Origin: Saccoglossus kowalevskii
Taxonomy: Eukaryota; Hemichordata; Enteropneusta; Harrimaniidae
DNA: 22,951 nt
Assembly (NCBI RefSeq): GCF_000003605.2
Contig: NW_003123429.1
Span: 65,276 to 88,226 of the forward strand
Reading direction: 5' to 3'
Below are positions 7,489 through 22,560 of the stretch, one piece after another. Positions within the stretch are counted from its first letter, which is position 1; each line of letters opens with the position of its first letter. The notes under the pieces were generated by a model. It saw only the letters and a program-made list of their open reading frames with translations, was not told the DNA's origin and ran no database searches. A program made the position numbers and the translations under genes.

Positions 7489-8095
7489 TTACCCCCCGGT
7501 ACTATCATTCGAGGCAGGGTGGTTTTGCTTGCCCCGCCCATAACAGACAAACAAGCGTTTCTCACTGCCCCAAGACACCTTGGTGAATTCGAAGTACCAG
7601 CTCAAAGCTCGAACAGGACATAGAATCCATTCCTGACAGTCTTCCAAACCCACTAGTGAGTTCATGAAAGAGGCACATTCGTCACTGAAGGACATTGTCC
7701 CTATCTCTGAACGCCGGCTACCTGACACCAGAGCCAATCCATAGGCTCGGAGGGGGGGTGTCGTAATGCTGCTAGAACCAACGACAATTTCCAGTGTGGA
7801 GAATTTGTTAGCCCCTTGGCATGCGGCCTCTTCGAGCGGAAAGACTAAAACAGTTGTGCATAATTTAACTCGAGGCCAGTTTCAGTCCAGCAGACCAAAC
7901 TGGGAACTAAACCTACTGATATCCAAGAATCGTCGATAGATTTTCCACGATCAAAAAATACAAAAAAACAACTACCTCGCTAATAGTGAGACGAAGATGA
8001 TCAATCTCCCTTCCGTTACACCAATCAATGTAGAGTCTCCAACTGGGCGTCCGCAGCACTGCGTATCCTCGGAAGGTGGTGAGCCATAGCTCCAC
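7489..8095 (-). pseudogene. Tyrosine recombinase remnant of the DIRS-like element
   Basis: In one frame the N-terminal core-binding part reads WRLYIDWCNGREIDHLR and continues as a helical stretch to a stop near 7913. A second frame adds a block with PHWKLSLVLAALRHPP and EPM, typical of the linker before the catalytic domain. The third segment (7737-7489) holds LALVSGSRRSEIG, which is box I of the recombinase with its catalytic Arg, then CPVRALSWYFE and LFVCYGRGKQ. The box II His-x-x-Arg and the nucleophilic Tyr are absent because the frame ends at 7489. About 20 residues normally found between EPM and LALVSG are missing. Frame changes and the lost C-terminus make this a pseudogene. In intact relatives the enzyme integrates circular cDNA. 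Confidence 0.75.
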
Positions 8096-8099
8096 TCAG

Positions 8100-8290
8100 T
8101 TCCAGTCACCAAAGGAGAATCTCCTCCGCTGGCTTCAACAACGTGGGGGGAAACACGCCCAACCCCCCCAACCCCCAACCCCCATAGCTGTATGACACTA
8201 CAGAGGTGTTGTCTGTTTCAAGCAGGACTGTGGTGGAGTCAGCGAGGGAGTCGTCGGACCTAGAGGCACTCCATTCTTCAAGTTCCGGGT
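8100..8290 (-). pseudogene. RNase H remnant of the DIRS-like element
   Basis: Minus-strand frames just after the reverse transcriptase show LETD followed by GGWG, matching the first catalytic Asp block of retroelement RNase H (usually TDAS..GWG). A shifted frame then gives PAEE and LELS, matching the Glu block. The second Asp block (DN) is missing and the sequence passes at once into the recombinase. A C-rich tract at 8157-8183 lies inside. The match is by short motifs across frames and is less certain than the recombinase. Confidence 0.5.
8157..8183 (-). other. Potential G-quadruplex on the minus strand
   Basis: The plus strand has four C-runs (3, 7, 5 and 5) separated by AA, so the minus strand carries G-runs separated by TT. 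This fits a stable G-quadruplex pattern. It lies within the RNase H remnant and probably arose or expanded after the element died. Confidence 0.5.
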
Positions 8291-8800
8291 GTCCTAAGGG
8301 AGGGCCGCCAGGACTTGGTCTGACAAGTGAACCCTAAACACCTGGTTCCCCATGTGGGCCTAGCGGCCCAACAGGCACCTCTGAATTCGATGAAGCCAAG
8401 GGGCTGCTGATGGGGAACCAGACGACGAACTGAAGTCATACAGCTAATAAGACGCATCAGTTCGCGCAAAGGAGCCGATCCCGTCAACCAGAGTTGGCTG
8501 TAGAGCACCAAAAAGGAGTCGCACCACGCCTGAGAGTGGTGGACAACCCCTTGTTCCGTTTCGAACTGCATATCCAAAAAAAACTAGGTTGCGGAATGGT
8601 ACGAGGTTAGACTTCATAATATTAGCATGGGAGTTATTGCCTGAGCCATCCTGCGGTTTTGATGCGAACTGTCGGCAAATAGCCCTGGCCAACAAGAATG
8701 ATTGCTTCAATGAATATGTTGATCCTGAGCAACCACCAATAGAGCTCGCCGACCACAAACGAACCAGCCACTCACCCAAGGCCCTCTCCGCACTAGGATA
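8278..8800 (-). pseudogene. Reverse transcriptase remnant (DIRS-type)
   Basis: From 8779 one frame begins LGEWLVR, a mutated form of the YLDDWL motif that carries the catalytic Asp pair; both Asp are lost here. The same frame continues with FLLARAICRQFAS and then KSNLVPFRNLVFFG, the thumb-proximal block with the usual KS.L.P....FG pattern. At an A8 run (8576-8583) the frame shifts, and the second frame continues MQFETEQG, then LMRLISCMTSVRRLVP, a block highly typical of DIRS polymerases just before RNase H. The fingers and most of the palm are absent. Order and motifs support DIRS-type RT strongly; activity is impossible. Confidence 0.75.
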
Positions 8801-8999
8801 GGAGCAGACTCAGTATTGCCTCTCGCTCAACCGAAACTGCTCCTTGTCAAGAGGGCAGTCTGGACTTGCAGGATGTCGCATATAGCAACTTTCTGTGCAA
8901 AACGGTCCAACTTCCCAGGGATCGTGGTTCGTTGCTTAGCACTCAGCCGGGTGAGCTGACGATTTAACCAAGGAGACCTATTTTACAAAGTTGATGGGT

Positions 9000-9404
9000 T
9001 TAAGTTCTGCCGCAGCGCCTGATGCACTTAAAGGCTCTGGTGCCGGTCAAATGACCATGCAACATGGCCTTCCCGATCCGCATAACCCGCCTTAAAAAAG
9101 GCACGAGTATCGGGATCGGGGCAGGGAGCCTGTGAAGAAGGCTGTGGCACCGCATGGGACCCATTGACGGTTTCCGTAGCCCGATGGGGTATAATCCCCC
9201 CAATGGGAGACATGGGACAAGACCGACCCAATCCAGGATCAGTCTTCTCGTCCTTGTCTCCCAAAGGGTACCAGTCACCCCCTCCATCGCCCTCTGAGCC
9301 CCTTCCACAACCTGGGTCACACGAGGTGCCCAGGGGAGTTGGCCAATAGGCATGGACTCCATGTCAGCAGAGGTGGGATCACCCCCGGCCCCACACAAAA
9401 ACAA
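9000..9404 (-). pseudogene. Possible gag-like frame of the DIRS-like element
   Basis: A 134-codon frame beginning MFLCGAGGDP lies where gag should be, upstream of the reverse transcriptase. A second minus frame (9264-9028) overlaps it and looks equally protein-like, so the true gag may be split between them by a frameshift. Neither shows a CCHC zinc knuckle. A third minus-strand frame continues below 9000 to a stop at about 8830 (LTRLSAKQRTTIPGKLDRFA). The label rests on position and composition only. Confidence 0.3.
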
Positions 9405-9550
9405 AGTCTTGCACCAAATTCTGCCCAGTTCACAAGCTGCGTCCGTATAATGGTTGGCTTGGTAGCCTGGTCAGCCCGAGCCTGAGGGTGGTGTGGGGAA
9501 TTCGGAAGAGGACGCGTAAGGTGATCCGTTCCAGGGAGAGGACCCCCTTC

Positions 9551-9649
9551 TATAAAAGAAGTGGACGCTCCCTTTCCTATTTAGGGTTCTGCCCAGCCTG
9601 ATTTGAGTGCCGGTCGCTAATTAATATTCATGAGCTAATTAATATTCAT
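9551..9649. promoter_or_regulatory. TATA box and 18-bp tandem duplication near the retroelement end
   Basis: TATAAAAG lies at 9551-9558 on the plus strand. GCTAATTAATATTCAT occurs at 9616-9631 and again at 9634-9649, an 18-bp period. The segment separates the DIRS-like block from the retropepsin-like block. It may be part of a terminal repeat carrying a promoter. The direction is uncertain because the TATA box points away from the element's genes. Confidence 0.35.
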
Positions 9650-10251
9650 TCAGACTGCGTGGTACCAATGAAGTCTCGGTGGATTGAACCGGTTCAGTCC
9701 TTAAGGGCCGTACTGAATTCACCACGGTACTCTGTGTCGATGTCAGCACCCTAGTGGGATTATGCTGTTTACTGACATCGATAACCATTGTGACTGGCAA
9801 CTCCGATTTGCCAGCAAAAGCAGTGGAACGGTGTTTGCCCACCTCGGTAACATTGAACGGGGAAACGTAACTCCACATTGAGAGAAAATCCCGGCACTGG
9901 TGTTTCCAAGTTATCGACCGACATCCCCATCACCTCCAAGAATGGTTTCAAAGGTCTTGTCTCAATCATCAATCCCGCTACATACAGCAGGTACTCCACC
10001 GTGACAACTCTTGATTTTTCACAGTCCACGATAGAAGGCAACCCCACCTCAAGGGGATACCACGAACGCGAATGCCACAGATCGCAAATTCCATTGAGGC
10101 AAAATCCTGTGTCCCATTTGCGACTATAACAATATGACAACACATGTTTGGCTCTCAAAATTGCAGCTCTAAGTGGCAAGATGAACGAATCTAATGTGCC
10201 GAATTTAGTCGGCACGATCTTAGCATTTTTAATGATTAAAGCATGATGCAC
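9639..10251 (-). pseudogene. Retropepsin-like region of a Gypsy-type retrotransposon, frameshifted
   Basis: A 160-codon frame (10251-9769) contains SIVDCEK at the place of a retropepsin active site. The usual Asp-Thr/Ser-Gly is degraded to Asp-Cys-Glu. It is followed by SRVVTVEYLL, then RPLKPFLEVMG and PGFSLNVELRFP. That order matches the beta-strand spacing of Gypsy-type aspartic proteases, where the later block is usually LEVxGAxG...PxxGYxE. Near 9855 the match seems to move to an overlapping frame (9878-9639), which gives ELPVTMVIDV and ends at the 18-bp tandem repeat. No reverse transcriptase of the same element follows; the DIRS-like block does. I rate this as plausible, not proven. Confidence 0.4.
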
Positions 10252-10962
10252 TCGAAGAAAAGATATGAAAAGTGATAGTGAAAATTCACCACGCCAAAAA
10301 TAGGAATCAAGGCGAATATAAACTGGGCTGTTGATTCAACAAAAAAACAGGTAAAAAAATAGGGCCCCTAATAAGGAAAGCCTTTCCCGTAATGACGTTG
10401 ATTGTCAGAGTCGATCACCACTAGATTTCTAGAGAGGCTCAGTCAGAAAACTGTAATCTGCATCTTTTTTGTCCGATAAATCCTGCAGAAGCAAAATTAC
10501 ATAACCATTTGGCAGTGGAACAAAATAAGAATTAAGGAACTGGCAGGCTTCTGGTGCGTGATCGCCCTGTGGGTGACCCCTTAGGCGAGGCCTTTTTTCT
10601 AGAGAATGCTACCCTATGGTGTTTCTTTTGCACCGGGTATATTCTCTAGTAGTTCCGTTTGGGGGCTGTAATCTGTAATTAAGCCTAACGAGTAATAAAT
10701 GAAATTTATTATTTCCACAGATTTTCTGGTAGGTCATGTACAATGAAAGTTCCATGTACAATAAAAAACAATTTTTACACTTTATGATATATTTTGTGTT
10801 TAAAAATCATATTGGAAATTCAATGAGGAAAATGCTTTATACAAAATATAAGATCTTTGTACAAATCATCGACGAATAAAACAGCTGTTTACATTTTAAA
10901 CCTTGCCCATGTCTACAAAAAGAGAATAAAAACAATGTATTACAGCCTACAAAAATAACCCC
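10252..10962. other. No gene recognised; contains a structured hairpin
   Basis: The segment between the retropepsin-like block and the minisatellite is moderately AT-rich. It has no recognisable frame. The only structure I see is the hairpin at 10599-10649 and a smaller stem just before it (TCGCC 10562-10566 with GGCGA 10584-10588). Confidence 0.35.
10599..10649. repeat. Multi-tier hairpin, 9+4+4 bp stems
   Basis: CTAGAGAAT (10599-10607) pairs with ATTCTCTAG (10641-10649). ACCC (10611-10614) pairs with GGGT (10635-10638). GGTG (10618-10621) pairs with CACC (10631-10634). Internal loops are small (GCT/AT, and a TAT bulge) and the apical loop is 9 bases. Pairing is continuous enough to suggest a folded RNA or a cruciform transposon terminus. 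No tRNA, snRNA or microRNA identity is evident. Confidence 0.6.
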
Positions 10963-11305
10963 TCTGTACCATACACAAGATTTACCGTACTCTGTACCAT
11001 ACACAAGATTTACCGTACTCTGTACCATACACAAGATTTACCGTACTCTGTACCATACACAAGATTTACCGTACTCTGTACCATACACAAGATTTACCGT
11101 ACTCTGTACCATACACAAGATTTACCGTACTCTGTACCATACACAAGATTTACCGTACTCTGTACCATACACAAGATTTACCGTACTCTGTACCATACAC
11201 AAGATTTACCGTACTCTGTACCATACACAAGATTTACCGTACTCTGTACCATACACAAGATTTACCGTACTCTGTACCATACACAAGATTTACCGTACTC
11301 TGTAC
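10963..11305 (+). repeat. 28-bp minisatellite, 12 identical copies plus 7 bases
   Basis: The unit begins TCTGTACCATACACAAGA and ends TTTACCGTAC. Twelve copies run without any visible substitution from 10963 to 11298, then a partial copy (TCTGTAC) to 11305. Each unit contains GTAC twice. Complete identity among copies points to recent expansion or to homogenisation by unequal exchange. As 28 is not a multiple of three, the array does not encode a repeating peptide. Confidence 0.97.
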
Positions 11306-11469: not shown

Positions 11470-11572
11470 ATCGGGTGTGCGGGCGGGCGGGCGGGCGGGC
11501 GGGCGGATAGACAAACATACCCCAAATTAATAGTCTCCTATTTCAGACTTTGTCCAAAACTGGGACTAAAAA
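11470..11572 (+). repeat. Family A 3' end with (GGGC)n expansion
   Basis: GGGC repeats occupy 11481-11506, at the same place relative to the terminal hairpin as the ACGG patch in the copy at 1-280. The hairpin then follows in degraded form (AGTCTCC near 11532, GGGACT at 11562-11567), then AAAAAC. The upstream monomers are not recognisable here. The G-runs fit a G-quadruplex. The copy ends directly against a LINE ORF2 fragment, so it may have inserted into that LINE or been cut off by rearrangement. Confidence 0.6.
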
Positions 11573-11573
11573 C

Positions 11574-11940
11574 ATTGAACTTCGCAAATCCTTAAAGTTT
11601 AGACTTTGCAACCACTGTTCGAAAATTGAAACAGGCCAGCATATGAGAATGAATATTAAAGACAGAATCTGCAATATGTGCGACAATGACCATGTTGAAG
11701 ATGAACAACATTTTGCCTTGAATTGTACTCATTACAATGAAATAAGGCTAAAACTTTACATTGTAGATGTAGCTAATAATTGTATAGCAAATTTTGACAA
11801 ACTTTCATATTATAATCAATTAATGTAAATTTCTTTAGCAAAATATTTAAACAAGCCATGCATGGCACAGTCCTCATTAGTTATCAAATTTAAGATATAT
11901 AGTTTTGTTTATAGTAATATAGTTGGAACATAAACATGTC
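11574..11940 (+). pseudogene. LINE ORF2 C-terminal zinc-finger fragment
   Basis: The frame reads RLCNHCSKIETGQHMR, then RICNMCDND, VEDEQHFALNC and YNEIRLKL. This is the cysteine/histidine motif (C-x2-C ... H-x4-C) found after the reverse transcriptase domain in many CR1/L2/Jockey-type LINEs. It continues FDKLSYYNQLM to a stop at 11826-11828. Past that stop the same frame resumes SLAKYLNK, the usual tail of these proteins, so the stop is a mutation and not the natural end. Upstream endonuclease and reverse transcriptase domains are missing; family A sequence abuts instead. The ATG at 11550 is not a natural start. Confidence 0.7.
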
Positions 11941-12034
11941 AGAAGTAAGGATCTAGAAGATGATGCTTCCATGATGATTTTTTAACATTAAAACGATTGA
12001 CATTTTGTATCTGATCGTACTTGTCTATATAAAG

Positions 12035-12436
12035 AAATATTGCTCTGGAACAGCATTAATTAAAACAAAATGGCCACCAGTTGGCTATTTTGAATACATC
12101 TATTTTTCTATAACCTGATTAGACGAATATTTTAAATTTGAACATAATCAGTCAAAGCATATCAGAGATATGGGTCTAGAAGCACATTCATTAAAACAAA
12201 ATGGCTGCCAGTCAGGAACTCTTAATCTTTGAAGAATGTACCAAGTTTGAACAAAATCCATCCATAAACGCCAAGATCCAGTTCTGAAATGCCAGAAAAG
12301 CTTGATTTTTGATAAATTTTTAGAACAAAAATGGCTGCCATTTGGAATCAGATGGTCAAACCAATATATCTATGTCACGATGTATACCGGTAATGAATAT
12401 ATAAAATTTGAACCTAATCAGTTAAAGCATGGCAGA
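12035..12436 (+). repeat. Family A copy, three ~130-bp monomers
   Basis: Monomers begin with AAAACAAAATGGC-type sequence at about 12063, 12194 and 12320, a spacing of about 130 bp. They share words with 14482-14620, such as GCATTAATTAAAACAAAATG and TTTGAACAAAATCCATCC. The first monomer carries the palindrome AAAATGGCC...GGCTATTTT. There is no terminal hairpin; the copy stops at about 12436 where a LINE 5' end starts. Confidence 0.7.
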
Positions 12437-13130
12437 GAGGGGGTGTCGAGAGGGTGAGGTGAATGGCGGACGTGTTGGTAAAAACAACAAAATCTGCTGT
12501 GTTATGTCATGAAGTACTCAGACTGTGGCAGTAATAGGAATGTTCGATTGAGCCAGGATTCCTACCTGTGACGAGTTAGTGAGATAATGTCTAATTTAAA
12601 ATCCTTATGCCAGAAAGTTGATAAAATTGATGAATTGCAAAAAGCTGTAGAATTTATGGGAAAATTATTTGAAGAAACAATTTATTAACCAAGCAACTTG
12701 AATAAGCTCAGAGAACCTTAATCAACACGCAAAAAGAGCTCCGCAACCTACAACAATATTCCAGACGTAACAATCTTGAGATTCATGGAATTCCTGAACA
12801 ACAACAAGAAAATACTGATGTCATTGTTGCGTCAGTTGCTAAAACTACTGGAGTGGATATATCTGAGCACGACATAGATACATTAGTTACCGCTTGCCAT
12901 CAACAGAAAAATCATCACAACCCTTCTTCTATAAAGTTTTTACATAGGACTGTCAGAAACAAGATATACAATGCAAGAAACACATAAAAAATAAATCCAC
13001 CAAAGACCTGAAAATTGACAATAAGATGAACACCTGAAACTTTATAAATGAAAACCAAAGGCAAATGAAAAGAAAAGGTTATGCAAATGGAAATTTATTT
13101 AGACAGTTAAGGGGACTACAATGTAGGTCA
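12437..13130 (+). pseudogene. LINE 5' end with broken ORF1
   Basis: A short GC-richer leader holds a YY1-like AATGGCGGA (12462-12470). ORF1 starts at ATG 12587 with a helical, charged N-terminus (KVDKIDELQKAVEF) and hits a stop after 33 codons. After frame changes, the segment 12706-12984 is open for 93 codons and includes ELRNLQQYSRRNNLEIHGIP, then GVDIS, DIDTL, SIKFLHRTVRNKIYNAR. This is the RNA-binding ORF1 domain (Transposase_22/RRM-like) found in many invertebrate LINEs. Later frames keep KSTKDLKID and GYANGNLF. ORF1 proteins coat the LINE RNA and act as chaperones in the cytoplasmic particle. Several stops and shifts show the copy is dead. Confidence 0.75.
12462..12470 (+). promoter_or_regulatory. 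YY1-like site in the LINE 5' leader
   Basis: AATGGCGGA lies ~25 bases from the apparent 5' end of the LINE and 117 bases before the ORF1 ATG. A YY1 site near the 5' end is known to position transcription starts in mammalian L1. Its presence here suggests a similar arrangement, by analogy only. Confidence 0.35.
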
Positions 13131-13283: not shown

Positions 13284-14457
13284 TTCCTTGAATACTTCCA
13301 CTTCTCTGCATATTTTTCTTTTCTGTTGCATATAAATTTATAGTACCAGTAGTTTGTTTATAATAATATTACTGTATTTGTCTTCAATTATGCGCCACTT
13401 TGTTACACTTTCATTTAGTGGTGGAGCTTATTTGTGGTTAAATTTGGGCAACTTTGTTTCAAATGGCACTTATTTCAAGCACTTCAAGTTCCAGTACTGG
13501 TAACTGTGTTTCATCAAGCCATTGTTCTTGCTCCATTCTTGGCAATATTTTACATTACAGTCTGACACTTAGTCACTGTAGCATTTATTTTAAATACTAA
13601 GTAAATGACCTGTTTTCAGACAGTCTAGAAAGTTATACAAAAATTATCATCCTTTAGAAAACATTCACATTTTGCCCTATGATCAACAGAAAAATAAAAC
13701 AAACACAAATGCATCGCTTAGTAGTACATGATCACGATAGCCAAATCTGGTCATGCTGCATTCCACAGTTACGATTATTACTCCGTAGTAATTATAATAA
13801 AGTACAAAAAATAAAATGCAAGTAAAATTCAACTTAATTTCATCGTAAGCGAATGATTCCGGTCGTATGTAAACATTTGATGCGATACGATATCCGCCAT
13901 GCTTCCTGTGTCGAAGTTGATCTGAAACATGTTCTTTGACCTGATACATGTAGGTCAAGTCGTTAATCATCCAATCAAAATGCTGGATGATGCCAACGTG
14001 ACCGATTTCTTAAAAATTGTTAGAAACAAAACCTAATTTCTCGCACAAAAGCCCATCGTACAGTAACAGTGAGAGTAACTGTAACAGTAACTGTGATCGC
14101 GTCTCCGCCGACTGCAATTTGCGATCATTACGTGGCAAAATTTCAACTCTGTCTGGCGCTTAATTGGGGTGTAAAATACAATATTTTCGTGGCACTGGTG
14201 CCTAATTGAAGACAAATACGGTATACATAATATTTTTATCTTTATATCTAAATCTTATAGATTACTGTTCGTTATGTAAATAGTAATTTTTCTTTCCTTT
14301 ACCAGTCAATTTCTACTTGGCAGTCTGGGCCATGGACTGGAATAGTCCATAAGGCTATTTCCATGGTCCACACCAGAATTATTACCATTAAGTTCAGTAA
14401 ATATGGTCATTTTGGTGAAATAAATAATATAAAATAATAAATAAATAAATAGATAGA
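13284..14457. other. No gene established; CpG-bearing patch with ATGGCGG
   Basis: AT-rich DNA with a less AT-rich patch at about 13850-14160. On the minus strand this patch has CAGGAAGCATGGCGG (ETS-like GGAAG next to an ATGGCGG start) opening a 23-codon frame near 13902. A different 95-codon minus frame (13683-13970) overlaps it. The patch may be a promoter, but no donor or protein family supports it. Imperfect repeats of AACTGT lie at about 14060-14100, and an imperfect hairpin with CCATGG arms at about 14328-14370. Confidence 0.25.
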
Positions 14458-14815
14458 TGTGGCACTAGAACTGCATTAATTAAAACAAAATGACCGCCAG
14501 TCGGCCATTTTAAATCCAATCTGAAAAATAAAATGATGTGCAACAAGGTCCCATAATGTCCAACGTATATACAAAGATTGAACAAAATCCATCCATAAAT
14601 GCTTGATTTTGATGATTTTTTAGCAACCATTCGACCATCTTGAATCAGATTGTGAAACAAATTGATGTGAATACATGTATGTATAATATTATGTATGATG
14701 CATACATGTGAAGTTTGATTGTCCAGGCATGTCTAAAATGGACATATGAACGCACAAGGGTCAATCCATAAGTCCTCGTTTTCGAACTGCATCCGAAACA
14801 ATGACTAAAAACTGT
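14458..14815 (+). repeat. Family A copy with two monomers and degraded terminal hairpin
   Basis: It begins with GCACTAGAACTGCATTAATT, matching the start of the copy at 12035. One monomer starts at 14482 with AAAATGACC...GGCCATTTT, a near-perfect palindrome. A second begins near 14590 and matches 1-250 closely. The terminal hairpin is present but mutated (AGTCCTC near 14771 to ATGACT near 14805) and is followed by AAAAAC. The ACGG-rich patch of the first copy is lost. Confidence 0.7.
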
Positions 14816-17674: not shown

Positions 17675-20232
17675 GTAAGTATATAAAATCACATTAGAGC
17701 AAAAATTAGATCAACTGTCTACAAATTACATGTATATCAAAAAATGGTTTGTCGTTTAAATTTTATTGAAATTTTCTCACATATTTTAAAGTGTGGTTGT
17801 TAATTTTCACTAATAATGTATTTCAGGGGTGAATGCTTATAAAATAGTAGAAATTAAATGTACATGTACATATGGAAGTCTAGGTGACCACACGAGTGTT
17901 GATTGATTTATTGACCAAGAGTGGTCAGCTTTTTTCTGATTCGCAATTGAATACTGAAATTTTCACCTTTCATTTAGGGTAAAATTGATCAATTTTAATC
18001 ACTTGTTTTATTTTTTCCAAATTATTGTCCAAAACATATAATAAAACTGAAAACATTTATTTTATTTTCCTATTGGTAGTGATGACAAGATACATATTAA
18101 AATAGTGGCATAAAAAGAGAAAATTAATATCTGCTTCTAGCTTCAATGATCACTTTGATAGAAGTGCACATTCATAAAATATATTCAATGGTATTATTTC
18201 TAAAGAAAAATAAACATGTACAGTGACTTATTTTAAGGATGTTTGAACCAAATTGTTAAATACATTTTTCAGGTATATGTCAAATTATTGATACTTTTGC
18301 ATCAGAATACATGTTATGGGAAAAAAAATATGGGGTAACCAGCCAGAGTAAGAAACTATGGGAGTCCAAAAAATGTAGGGTAACCAGCCCAAGTAAGGAA
18401 ATGATGTTTTTGTCAGCTTACTGTGGTTTTGCAAATTTGTTTCTGTGCAATATGTTTTCCATCATACTAAGAAATTTGGCTGAAAACATGATACATTGTA
18501 ATTGTCATTTATTTAATTTGCAGTATGTACAATAAATAAACTTATTAGGCAATAAAGCTTTTGATTTTGGCCGATGCATTTTACAGTCAGGACCCAGTCC
18601 TATTGAAGCCTCAACCCCGAGATCTTATTGAAGCCAAACTTAGCTCAAGTCAAACACATTTACACAACAATTTTTGAGCTTCAGTAAAATCCTGTTGTGT
18701 AAATGAAGTAATTGTCGATTGATAAATAACAGAGAAATCCTTGAATCATGTTAAAGAACCACAGTACATGATAACATTTTGTGTAAATCAGTTGACCCAT
18801 ATCAAACATGGTGCATTGCAAAGACTGCTCTTACTATTATTGTGCCTTTCAATGAGCTAAGATTCTGTATTTACATGTATGTGTCAAATTGTGTTCTCAG
18901 ATAATTTTATTTCTGGATGGTGTGCATTATAAATTATCAGATTCTAGTGCTAAATAAACATTTTTACCTCATTTATTGTAATGGTTCTACTTATCCCATT
19001 AGTTCATGACTTAAGTGCAGCATGATTGTTCAAATCCTGTCAAATATTTGAGCTGTTGTTCAAGTTTTGTGGTTAATGATTACTTTTGAGTGGAAAAAGC
19101 TCTAAGTCCTCCACTTCAGGTTATCCACTGAATATCTATAGTTTTTTTGTCTCAAGTGAGGCCAGAAGCCTTGTCCATATTGTATATAATGTACATGGTC
19201 TCATAACTACAACTGATCAGTACTGTGATATCCCCACATACTCTTGGTCACTGTGAACCAGCTACATATACTGCATACATGTAAATCTTGAAATTCATAG
19301 TAGTCTCCTCAATGCTTAACATGATTGAGCATTGACTATATATTGCTATCTTGAATGTTGTAGCTGAGTGTGATCTGATCATAATAAAATATTGCAAAAT
19401 CACTCGGCCAAACTTAAATCAGAGCAATATTATTTCGGCACTGCACTTTACTTATGCTTGGTCTCAGGTTTCAATAAATTTAATTTATTTTTCTTAATCT
19501 ATCGTGTGCTAAACCAAGCAGGGACATTATATGGTATGTTCATTGTCTGATAGTCGCCCAATACACAGTACTACCATTCAATAAATTCACTTGTTGTATC
19601 AGTCTTTTCTGCTCTAAATATTATAATTCATCATTTTTATTCACCTATAGGCAAATTTTGTATCGTTTTGGAAATCTGTTGTGTGTTGTCTGGTTTATCT
19701 TACAATTTTTGGTAACCTGGTAGTAACGCATTATAGCCGATGGCATCCACTACGCCTAACATTGTTACATCGCAGTCCAATTGTGACGTACATGCTAATA
19801 GCCTTTGTCAAGACAAAACAAAACTATTTAAATTGAAAGCATGAAAGTGAATAGTGTTGACTCTGCAGTTTAGTTTCATGAAGGTTTTCCTTTGATCACT
19901 TGAATGTTTTAAGGGTGTATGTATGAGAGTAAGCTCAGTAAAAGGGCATGAAACCAACTCTTTCAAGACTTAGTTTTAAAAAGATAAAAATGTTATTATA
20001 CTTAATACATGTACATATAACTACTTAATGAAACTTATTTTCGCTAAAAACCACCTCCCTCATAATTTGTTGTGAATATCATTACTTCCAACTTTAGTGT
20101 GCAAAATGTAGGCTCATTTAAGACTTTTTTTCGATGATAAACAAAAGTTTACTATTTTTATTGTACAGACTTTAATTAATTATTAGCTGTGGTTTATTTT
20201 TCTCATTTTGCTGATAAATTAAAAGTGAATAT
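17675..20232. other. No gene recognised; possible intron
   Basis: About 2.5 kb of AT-rich DNA after the strong donor at 17675. It holds a 45-bp imperfect tandem duplication (18334-18410) inside a short open frame, a 13-bp perfect inverted repeat (18657-18705) and five TACATGTA words. I see no exon with convincing borders. If the gene model is right, this is part of a first intron. Confidence 0.35.
18657..18705. repeat. Perfect 13-bp inverted repeat
   Basis: CATTTACACAACA (18657-18669) and TGTTGTGTAAATG (18693-18705) are exact reverse complements separated by 23 bases. Just upstream, TATTGAAGCC occurs twice (18601-18610 and 18626-18635). No other arm extends the stem. Confidence 0.8.
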
Positions 20233-20377
20233 CAGTGTTCGAAATTAACTGAAAATCATAACAGGCCCGAAGGACCTATGTCAAATTAAAACTGTAGGTC
20301 TTTCTAGCGAACTGTAGGCCCTGATATTTAACAAACAAAGACTACAAGCTTGCAATTTCAAAACCTTTATTTACTAA

Positions 20378-21183
20378 TCAATCAGATATATTATCTGCAG
20401 CCTCAAATAGGTCATCATCACTTTTTTCATCGTCACTAACTCATCAAAATCTTCAGAAAAAAACATGATTTGCAGAACGGATATAAATGATTTCGTTTTC
20501 AATAACTGAAACATCTGTCGAACCATCACTTATCAGTGTGAAAAACTTGTAATTATTTCACTTCCACAGCAATATTATTTTGTTCAACTTGACTGACACA
20601 AATTCCATGCATCATTGCGGTAAGTTTCACCAAGTGTGAGCCCTTTTTTCCTCATTAAGATTCGCCATCCACACAAAATCAGAAAATGGTTTATTATTCT
20701 TGGCTATTGCATGTGCATCGCGGAACAGACGGTCGAGCTTATCAAACACTGCAGCATTCATTCATCAGCAGTTTCAGCTACACTCTTTCAAGAACGATTC
20801 GTCATGTGAATTACAGCTTGATTATGACCATCGGATCTCTGGTGATCAACAAGAGTAGAGTGTTTGAAATAATTAGTCCCCACCACAAATGGCCCTTTTG
20901 AATAATTCTGAAAACCAGAACACAGCTTGTCGGGCAGCTTACTAACCGACAGCTGGCCGTAGGATCCTCGACAAGGCCGGCAATACATCACCTTGTTGTT
21001 GTTATCAAAAAGTAACCAGTCTTTAAACTCCGCCTGCCAGCTAATTTGGAATGTGCATGGTTTACGCCTAGACCGTTCGTATTCTTGCTGTTTGTCACGC
21101 CTTTTTTGTGTAGTTTTCACACGTTTAGCTGTAGGCTCCTGACAGTTTACTTTAAATATCGCCACATACTTCGATGTAGACAT
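20378..21183 (-). pseudogene. Broken hAT transposase, ZNF862/C17orf113-like family
   Basis: The likely start is ATG 21183 (MSTSKYVAIF), after a CCAAT and YY1-like leader; an upstream in-frame ATG at 21288 also exists. A basic stretch (KTTQKRRDKQQEYERSRR) may be a nuclear signal. It is followed by W-x3-F-x2-WL, then MYCRPC, then FVVGTNYFKHSTLVDH and H: a C-x2-C ... H-x5-H finger typical of the N-terminus of this hAT group. The frame stops at 20788. Shifted frames continue KLDRLFRDAHAIAKNNKPFS, GETYRND and then ISDGSTDVSVIENEIIYIR, which holds the first catalytic Asp of the RNase-H-like core. An acidic tail (SDDEKSDDDLFEAADNISD) ends at 20378, with AATAAA at 20371-20366. Most of the catalytic core and the dimerisation domain are deleted. 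Confidence 0.9.
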
Positions 21184-21214
21184 AACTCTGCAACTATTGA
21201 TACCAGCGTGTTCG

Positions 21215-21264
21215 ATGCAAATCAAAGATGGCGGAACATAAAATGTAAGCGCGAATTCTATTGG
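21215..21264 (-). promoter_or_regulatory. hAT internal promoter motifs: CCAAT, YY1-like, octamer
   Basis: On the minus strand, in transcription order, there is CCAAT (21264-21260), CCGCCATCTTTG (21234-21223, a YY1 core) and ATTTGCAT (21222-21215, an octamer motif), then the ATG at 21183. The order and spacing resemble a TATA-less animal promoter where YY1 marks the start of transcription. Motif evidence only. Confidence 0.4.
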
Positions 21265-21518
21265 TTTGAATCGGAGGCTTGATGCCATTTGTTGATCAAA
21301 CGTGCAAGAAAACGCAATTTTGAAACAATTCTGGAGTTACTAGCGATATTTATTATATATTTGGTTTTACAATCATATTAAACAATGGAACGTTTTTTTT
21401 AAATATAAATTTATGGTCGGTCACAAGGACTGATGGTTTTTCACAGCTCTCGGCCCTTCACACCCACTGTCGGCGTGAGGCCGACGGACCGACGTTAATT
21501 TCGAACACTGGTGAATAT

Positions 21519-22444: not shown

Positions 22445-22560
22445 CAATCAGTCACATGATTTTGAAAACTAAGAACTAATGCTCGCTATCTGATTCAAGA
22501 TGGATGATTGGTGGCCATTTTATGTCAATCAGCAACTTGATCTTACTTGTGGTCTATTTC
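22445..22560 (-). repeat. Family A copy, minus strand, degraded
   Basis: Read on the minus strand, AAAATGGCCACCAATCATCC followed by ATCTTGAATCAGAT matches the monomer core of family A. Only part of one monomer is clear. It supports the idea that the family is dispersed in both orientations. Confidence 0.5.

Follow-up and report, generated by a model that had tools for sequence, protein, structure and literature searches.

A transposon copy whose ends are perfect and whose gene is in ruins raises a question of order, namely whether the element decayed where it stands or was already defective when it moved. We address this question for an hAT element of 1278 bp from the hemichordate Saccoglossus kowalevskii, which lies in a stretch of 22,951 nucleotides (C1616:65276-88226 within the 572-Mb genome assembly; "the window" hereafter means this whole stretch). 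Its ends and target duplication are exact, it belongs to a family, and the same deletions occur at independent sites. The reading that we favour, with a probability of about 0.9, is that this is a non-autonomous hAT element, the internally deleted descendant of a longer hAT element with a C17orf113-type zinc finger, and that the broken form moved in trans.

Ends and target duplication

The element spans 20233-21510 of the window and carries its gene on the minus strand, with the 5' end of the gene at 21510. An initial annotation of this DNA had described a complete insertion with exact 17-bp terminal inverted repeats (TIRs) and an exact 8-bp target duplication, which is borne out with 0 mismatches at both coordinates:

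20225..20232, plus strand: left target-site duplication, GTGAATAT (base-by-base comparison)
20233..21510, minus strand: whole hAT element, 1278 bp (ends and genome matches)
20233..20249, plus strand: 17-bp TIR at the 3' end of the gene (pattern search)
21494..21510, minus strand: 17-bp TIR at the 5' end of the gene (pattern search)
21511..21518, plus strand: right target-site duplication, GTGAATAT (base-by-base comparison)

The TIR, CAGTGTTCGAAATTAAC, agrees between the two ends in 17/17 bp. When up to 3 mismatches were allowed it had two matches in the window, both of them the ends of the element (0.09 expected), and two matches arose in 1/100 shuffled windows. By itself GTGAATAT is unremarkable, with a third copy at 20072 and 1.41 expected in the window; it is its placement against both TIRs, not its mere presence, that is remarkable. 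Compared base by base, direct identity ends after exactly 8 bp and inverted identity after exactly 17 bp, so the TIRs do not run on into the flanks. Nor are the 8-bp flanks part of a larger duplication: the 1001 bp to the left of the element match themselves alone, with no second, empty copy of this flank in the assembly, and the 500 bp on either side match the flanks of none of the 17 further two-ended copies described below.

Gene remnant

The assignment to hAT, also made in the initial annotation, is backed by the 8-bp duplications, the TIRs, a PF25431 zinc finger and pieces of a related transposase. The features inside the element are given below with reference to two further copies of the family, L004 and L034, and to L069, a relative in the same genome.

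20788..21288, minus strand: open frame of 166 aa that includes the zinc finger of the transposase (ORF and Pfam)
20806..20925, minus strand: best-scoring zf-C17orf113 stretch, residues 122-161 (PF25431)
21150..21154, minus strand: 5 extra bp that alter the frame, missing in L004 (copy alignment)
21280..21283, minus strand: site of ~107 bp missing from the 5' part, as in L004 (comparison with 16 shorter copies)
20627..20761, minus strand: transposase fragment in a different frame, MNAAVFDKLDRLFRDAHAIAKNNKPFSDFVWMANLNEE.. and MNAAVFDKLDRLF..NLNEE (translation, search)
20453..20557, minus strand: piece of transposase containing ISDGSTD, which we read as the first catalytic motif (alignment to ISDGATD of L069)
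20457..20475, minus strand: internal deletion junction (approximate), from the catalytic region to the C-terminal acidic tail (common to L004 and L034)
20378..20440, minus strand: C-terminal acidic tail, ..SDDEKSDDDLFEAADNISD stop and ..SDDDLFEAADNISD-stop (translation, alignment)
20366..20371, minus strand: AATAAA, a possible poly(A) signal directly past the stop (read by eye from the sequence)

The 166-aa frame matches PF25431 (zf-C17orf113) with an E-value of 8.4e-10 and 38.8 bits, the cut-off being 29.5, and its first ~46 residues are probably a leader translated by chance. L004 matches residues 1-48 and 47-165 of this frame as two separate frames, because the window copy has 5 extra bases at 21150-21154. 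Ten aligned copies are readable at this point; the bases are present in the window copy and, as a variant, in the shorter copy L012, and are missing in the other 8. We dropped the idea that they are private to the window copy given the variant in L012, which, with the nearest relative L004 lacking them, may reflect chance or exchange between copies.

The relative L069 has an open frame of 403 aa that matches PF25431 (E 1.5e-13) and, at E 0.0013 and below the family cut-off, DUF4371 (PF14291). The pieces of the window copy, interrupted by stops and frame changes, align with L069 through ISDG[SA]TD. In the window copy ISDGSTD leads straight into the tail, and most of the catalytic region has therefore been lost together with the sequence downstream of it; we take the ISDG[SA]TD region and the part lost after it to be the catalytic part of the transposase. 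An hAT transposase comprises a zinc finger, a DDE-type catalytic domain and a dimerisation domain; here the zinc finger is matched by PF25431, the first catalytic motif is placed by the alignment to L069, and the remainder is deleted. Six other pieces compared with Pfam had no match, and part of the apparent decay of the gene could reflect introns or assembly errors. A TRAP-delta match of the 166-aa frame (E 0.0077, under the family cut-off) was taken as chance.

Copies of the family in the genome

Searching the genome with the element gave at least 67 matches, which we grouped into at least 26 places including the window; copy counts are lower bounds, and the 25 places besides the window were retrieved for comparison. 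Both ends are present at 18/26 places. A perfect 8-bp duplication flanks 13 of these 18 two-ended copies, and all 13 sequences are different; two copies (L011 and L031) have a 7/8 duplication and three (L012, L013 and L021) no recognisable one. In this count L024, with a 2-bp gap within one end, reveals its duplication only after a shift, and for L025 the outer ends were used. Across the genome there are 34 occurrences of the exact TIR, all of them within 23 of the 26 places, and 0 of the reversed control.

Besides the window copy and L004, the two-ended places (16) hold shorter forms with other internal deletions, and 9/16 have an identical 15-letter marker adjoining one of their deletions. 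These shorter deletion forms have spread too. Their lengths lie between 526 bp (L023) and 984 bp, with the exceptions of L015 (1432 bp) and of L012 and L025 (1065 and 1266 bp by their outer, doubled ends). L015 (1501-2932) contains a 451-bp insertion with inverted-repeat-like ends and AGCT at both borders, missing in the related copy L017, which is possibly a small transposon nested inside the family copy. L012 (1415-2479), with its doubled end, sits without a duplication in a repeat array of units ~53 bp apart, and L025 (1501-2766), also with a doubled end, has a perfect duplication at its outer ends.

The target preference of the Ac group is nTnnnnAn. The 8-bp sites of the present family lean in a similar direction, T at position 2 and A at position 7 being commonest with 13/26 counts each (both strands of 13 sites, a small sample with no background control).

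Movement of the deleted form

The closest copy, L004 (on C2223), differs from the window copy at 38 of 1254 aligned sites (97.0% identity), and by gaps besides. It has a target-site duplication of its own, GTGTCCAG, and is flanked by sequence unrelated to the flanks of the window copy. It has the internal deletion junction of the window copy, with 3 substitutions in the 35 bases around it, and the ~107-bp 5' segment, held whole or in part by the 16 shorter two-ended copies, is gone from both. A third copy, L034 (on C1416), crosses the same junction in 98/108 bases; it is damaged, with N directly past the junction region, and is without a second end. The same deletions at unrelated sites with different duplications argue that the broken form itself transposed. 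The element thus kept its ends without a functional transposase, and the same deleted form stands at independent sites, as is expected of a non-autonomous element. These sequence comparisons place the breakage before the movement and support transposition in trans after loss of the gene.

Damage has also accumulated since. A 12-bp stretch that includes part of ISDGSTD is missing from L004, and this loss, together with the 5 extra bp of the window copy, implies that some decay postdates the split of the two copies or was exchanged between copies. When substitutions were polarised, only columns covered by five or more of the 16 shorter copies being counted, 12 changes fell on the window branch, 10 on the L004 branch and 0 were ambiguous in 764 columns (positions 540-770 excluded). 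The corresponding figures for a wider column set that includes the middle were 12, 12 and 1 of 878. The change per branch is ~1.6% for the window copy and ~1.3% for L004. Seemingly "shared" columns at element positions ~620-758 (gene direction) were discarded as noise, unrelated bases being aligned there.

We propose the following outline. An ancestor lost the middle of its gene, from past the first catalytic motif to the acidic C-terminal tail, as well as ~107 bp near its 5' end, perhaps through interrupted gap repair. The deleted form, which kept both ends, was then mobilised by transposase made elsewhere, presumably by the full-length parent, and its landing at GTGAATAT created the 8-bp duplication. 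The insertion in the window would be no older than the split from L004 (~1.3-1.6% per branch), unless L004 alone moved.

Source of the transposase

No full-length copy of the family was found in the readable sequence of the assembly. Protein searches gave 33 matches with the zinc-finger frame (best 40 candidates scored) and 5 with the catalytic piece (best 8 candidates scored), and yielded no helper among these, the matches being known copies and more distant relatives. Long frames at C1916 (688 and 744 aa) and C651 (684 aa) were rejected as helpers, as they consist mostly of N runs translated as X. As these searches turned up neither a full-length nor an intact helper, it is the shared damage that carries the trans step.

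The copies might instead have been moved by the transposase of another hAT family. The failure to find a full-length parent would fit such cross-mobilisation, as would the confinement of the 34 exact TIRs to the 26 known places, and the genome is rich in relatives of the same type, with 39 PF25431 matches (38 above the cut-off) and 67 matches to L069. However, stops interrupt 6 of the former and 35 of the latter, the remnant gene indicates a parent of the same family, and the fetched stretches of four relatives (L065, L066, L068 and L069) displayed no end pair like that of the family, although the first three contain long N runs. On balance we consider a foreign transposase unlikely and prefer the full-length parent as helper. 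One of these relatives, L065 (3307-4561), has ends CAGTGTAGGAAATT and is apparently internally deleted too, comprising a zinc-finger part and an acidic C-terminal part.

Among the eight incomplete copies of the family, five (L019, L026, L027, L030 and L034) have an N run within ~160 bp of the match; in L032 and L033 the N run is farther off, and L020 has no second end in the readable sequence. A full-length copy could be hidden in the N beside such copies, and a helper, as the initial annotation suggested, may survive. We give rather little credence to the tentative idea that the species retains a full-length, working C17orf113-type helper, either in stretches left unread in the assembly or in individuals other than the one sequenced, and that the deleted copies are still being mobilised by it.

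Alternative histories

A different account would have an autonomous copy insert into the window and break in place, while a deleted sister copy served as template for gap repair or gene conversion in L004 and L034, which would thereby have gained the same deletion. Perfect ends do not speak against it as strongly as the initial annotation had supposed. All 25 site pairs of the TIRs and duplication would match with a probability of 0.49, 0.22 and 0.08 at 1.4%, 3% and 5% change per copy, so perfect ends beside a decayed gene are a weak argument, given a 22% chance of survival even at 3%. Hence that part of the earlier case for movement in trans after breakage proves little, whereas the movement itself finds its support in the deletion junction common to L004 and L034. 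The 5 extra bp found as a variant in L012 and missing in L004 may moreover hint at the exchange between copies that this account needs. Against it, the window copy and L004 have two separate deletions in common at unrelated sites, and conversion would need to have transferred both; shorter deletion forms, too, stand at many sites, each with its own duplication. We regard decay in place as very improbable. Multiplication by segmental duplication rather than transposition, for which one might cite the 3/18 two-ended copies without a recognisable duplication and L012 with its doubled end in a repeat array, is practically ruled out by the 13 different perfect duplications, and is rejected for the window copy by its unmatched flanks and unique left flank.

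Other features of the window and outside searches

Away from the element, 7489-10335 (minus strand) is G+C-rich (0.53 at 8001-10000), and its broken frames are, by eye, reminiscent of a DIRS-type retroelement; five pieces of it had no Pfam match at E 0.1. Frames at 11511-11828 and 12706-12987 (plus strand) look by eye like parts of LINE-type elements, with Pfam matches below cut-offs only. At 10962-11305 a 28-bp unit is repeated perfectly, in tandem, 12.3 times, and dispersed related repeats (AAAATGGCCACC.. and similar) occur in both orientations at 31-87, 12026-12098, 14446-14518, 14623-14673 and 22483-22529. Two inverted pairs, 5208-5232/6274-6298 (25 nt, 96%) and 15738-15765/16138-16165 (28 nt, 93% complementary), are possibly the ends of other DNA transposons. 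The window had no Rfam match at gathering scores.

No relative of the 166-aa frame was found in phage records, viral contigs or prokaryote genome contigs, and the best matches among solved-structure sequences reached only E 0.57, and 0.3 and 0.94. Two viral contigs contain the TIR, each a single time; we took both as chance, the L002 site, which was the one inspected, being a lone match. In the open-licence papers searched the 16- and 13-letter parts of the TIR are absent, a 12-letter part occurs in one paper on biocontrol of plant disease, and no description of this hAT family was among the matches listed. The names C17orf113, ZNF862 and KIAA1586 have 0 occurrences each in the available part of PMC10641963.

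Comparison with known systems

The 8-bp duplication and the TIRs of 17/17 bp agree with hAT elements, for which the available part of PMC3942097 gives TIRs of 10-25 bp. At 1278 bp, with coding remnants and at least 26 places, the element does not qualify as a MITE, which would be short, non-coding and present in high copy number; the 526-bp copy L023 comes nearer. It is ordinary in kind, a common hAT type, and the case for it is well supported. On a small scale it illustrates cleanly how a transposon spread once its enzyme was gone, and the order of events can be read from the deletions that independent insertions have in common. The C17orf113-type hAT elements gain a family with it. To our knowledge, few animal hAT systems are known to be active; a live helper, if found, would add one to them, and otherwise the result is routine annotation.

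Among C17orf113-type hAT transposases (PF25431; DUF4371, PF14291), which have a link to ZNF862, the zinc finger is alike in the window copy and L069, the window copy keeping the N-terminal part and the tail alone. Ds of maize consists of deleted Ac-like copies that are moved by the Ac transposase and make 8-bp duplications. Our family resembles it in its deleted copies and 8-bp duplications and differs in that its transposase probably belongs to another branch, and in that helper activity is known for Ac.

Within animals, the available part of a bivalve survey (PMC10294476) describes hAT elements in all genomes analysed, with many non-autonomous copies. In the Drosophila element BuT2 (hAT, Tip group), according to the available part of PMC3942097, MITE-like copies, 24 of them in D. 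willistoni, keep their ends and have differing target-site duplications, and an origin by deletion and movement in trans are inferred there. For BuT2 a complete element is known whose transposase is putatively functional, whereas no full-length parent was found for the present family, and the two likely belong to different transposase branches, judged from PF25431. Deleted copies with kept ends, differing duplications, a modest copy number and movement in trans are the points of likeness, and, on the parts of the papers available for comparison, BuT2 with its MITE-like copies is the nearest described case.
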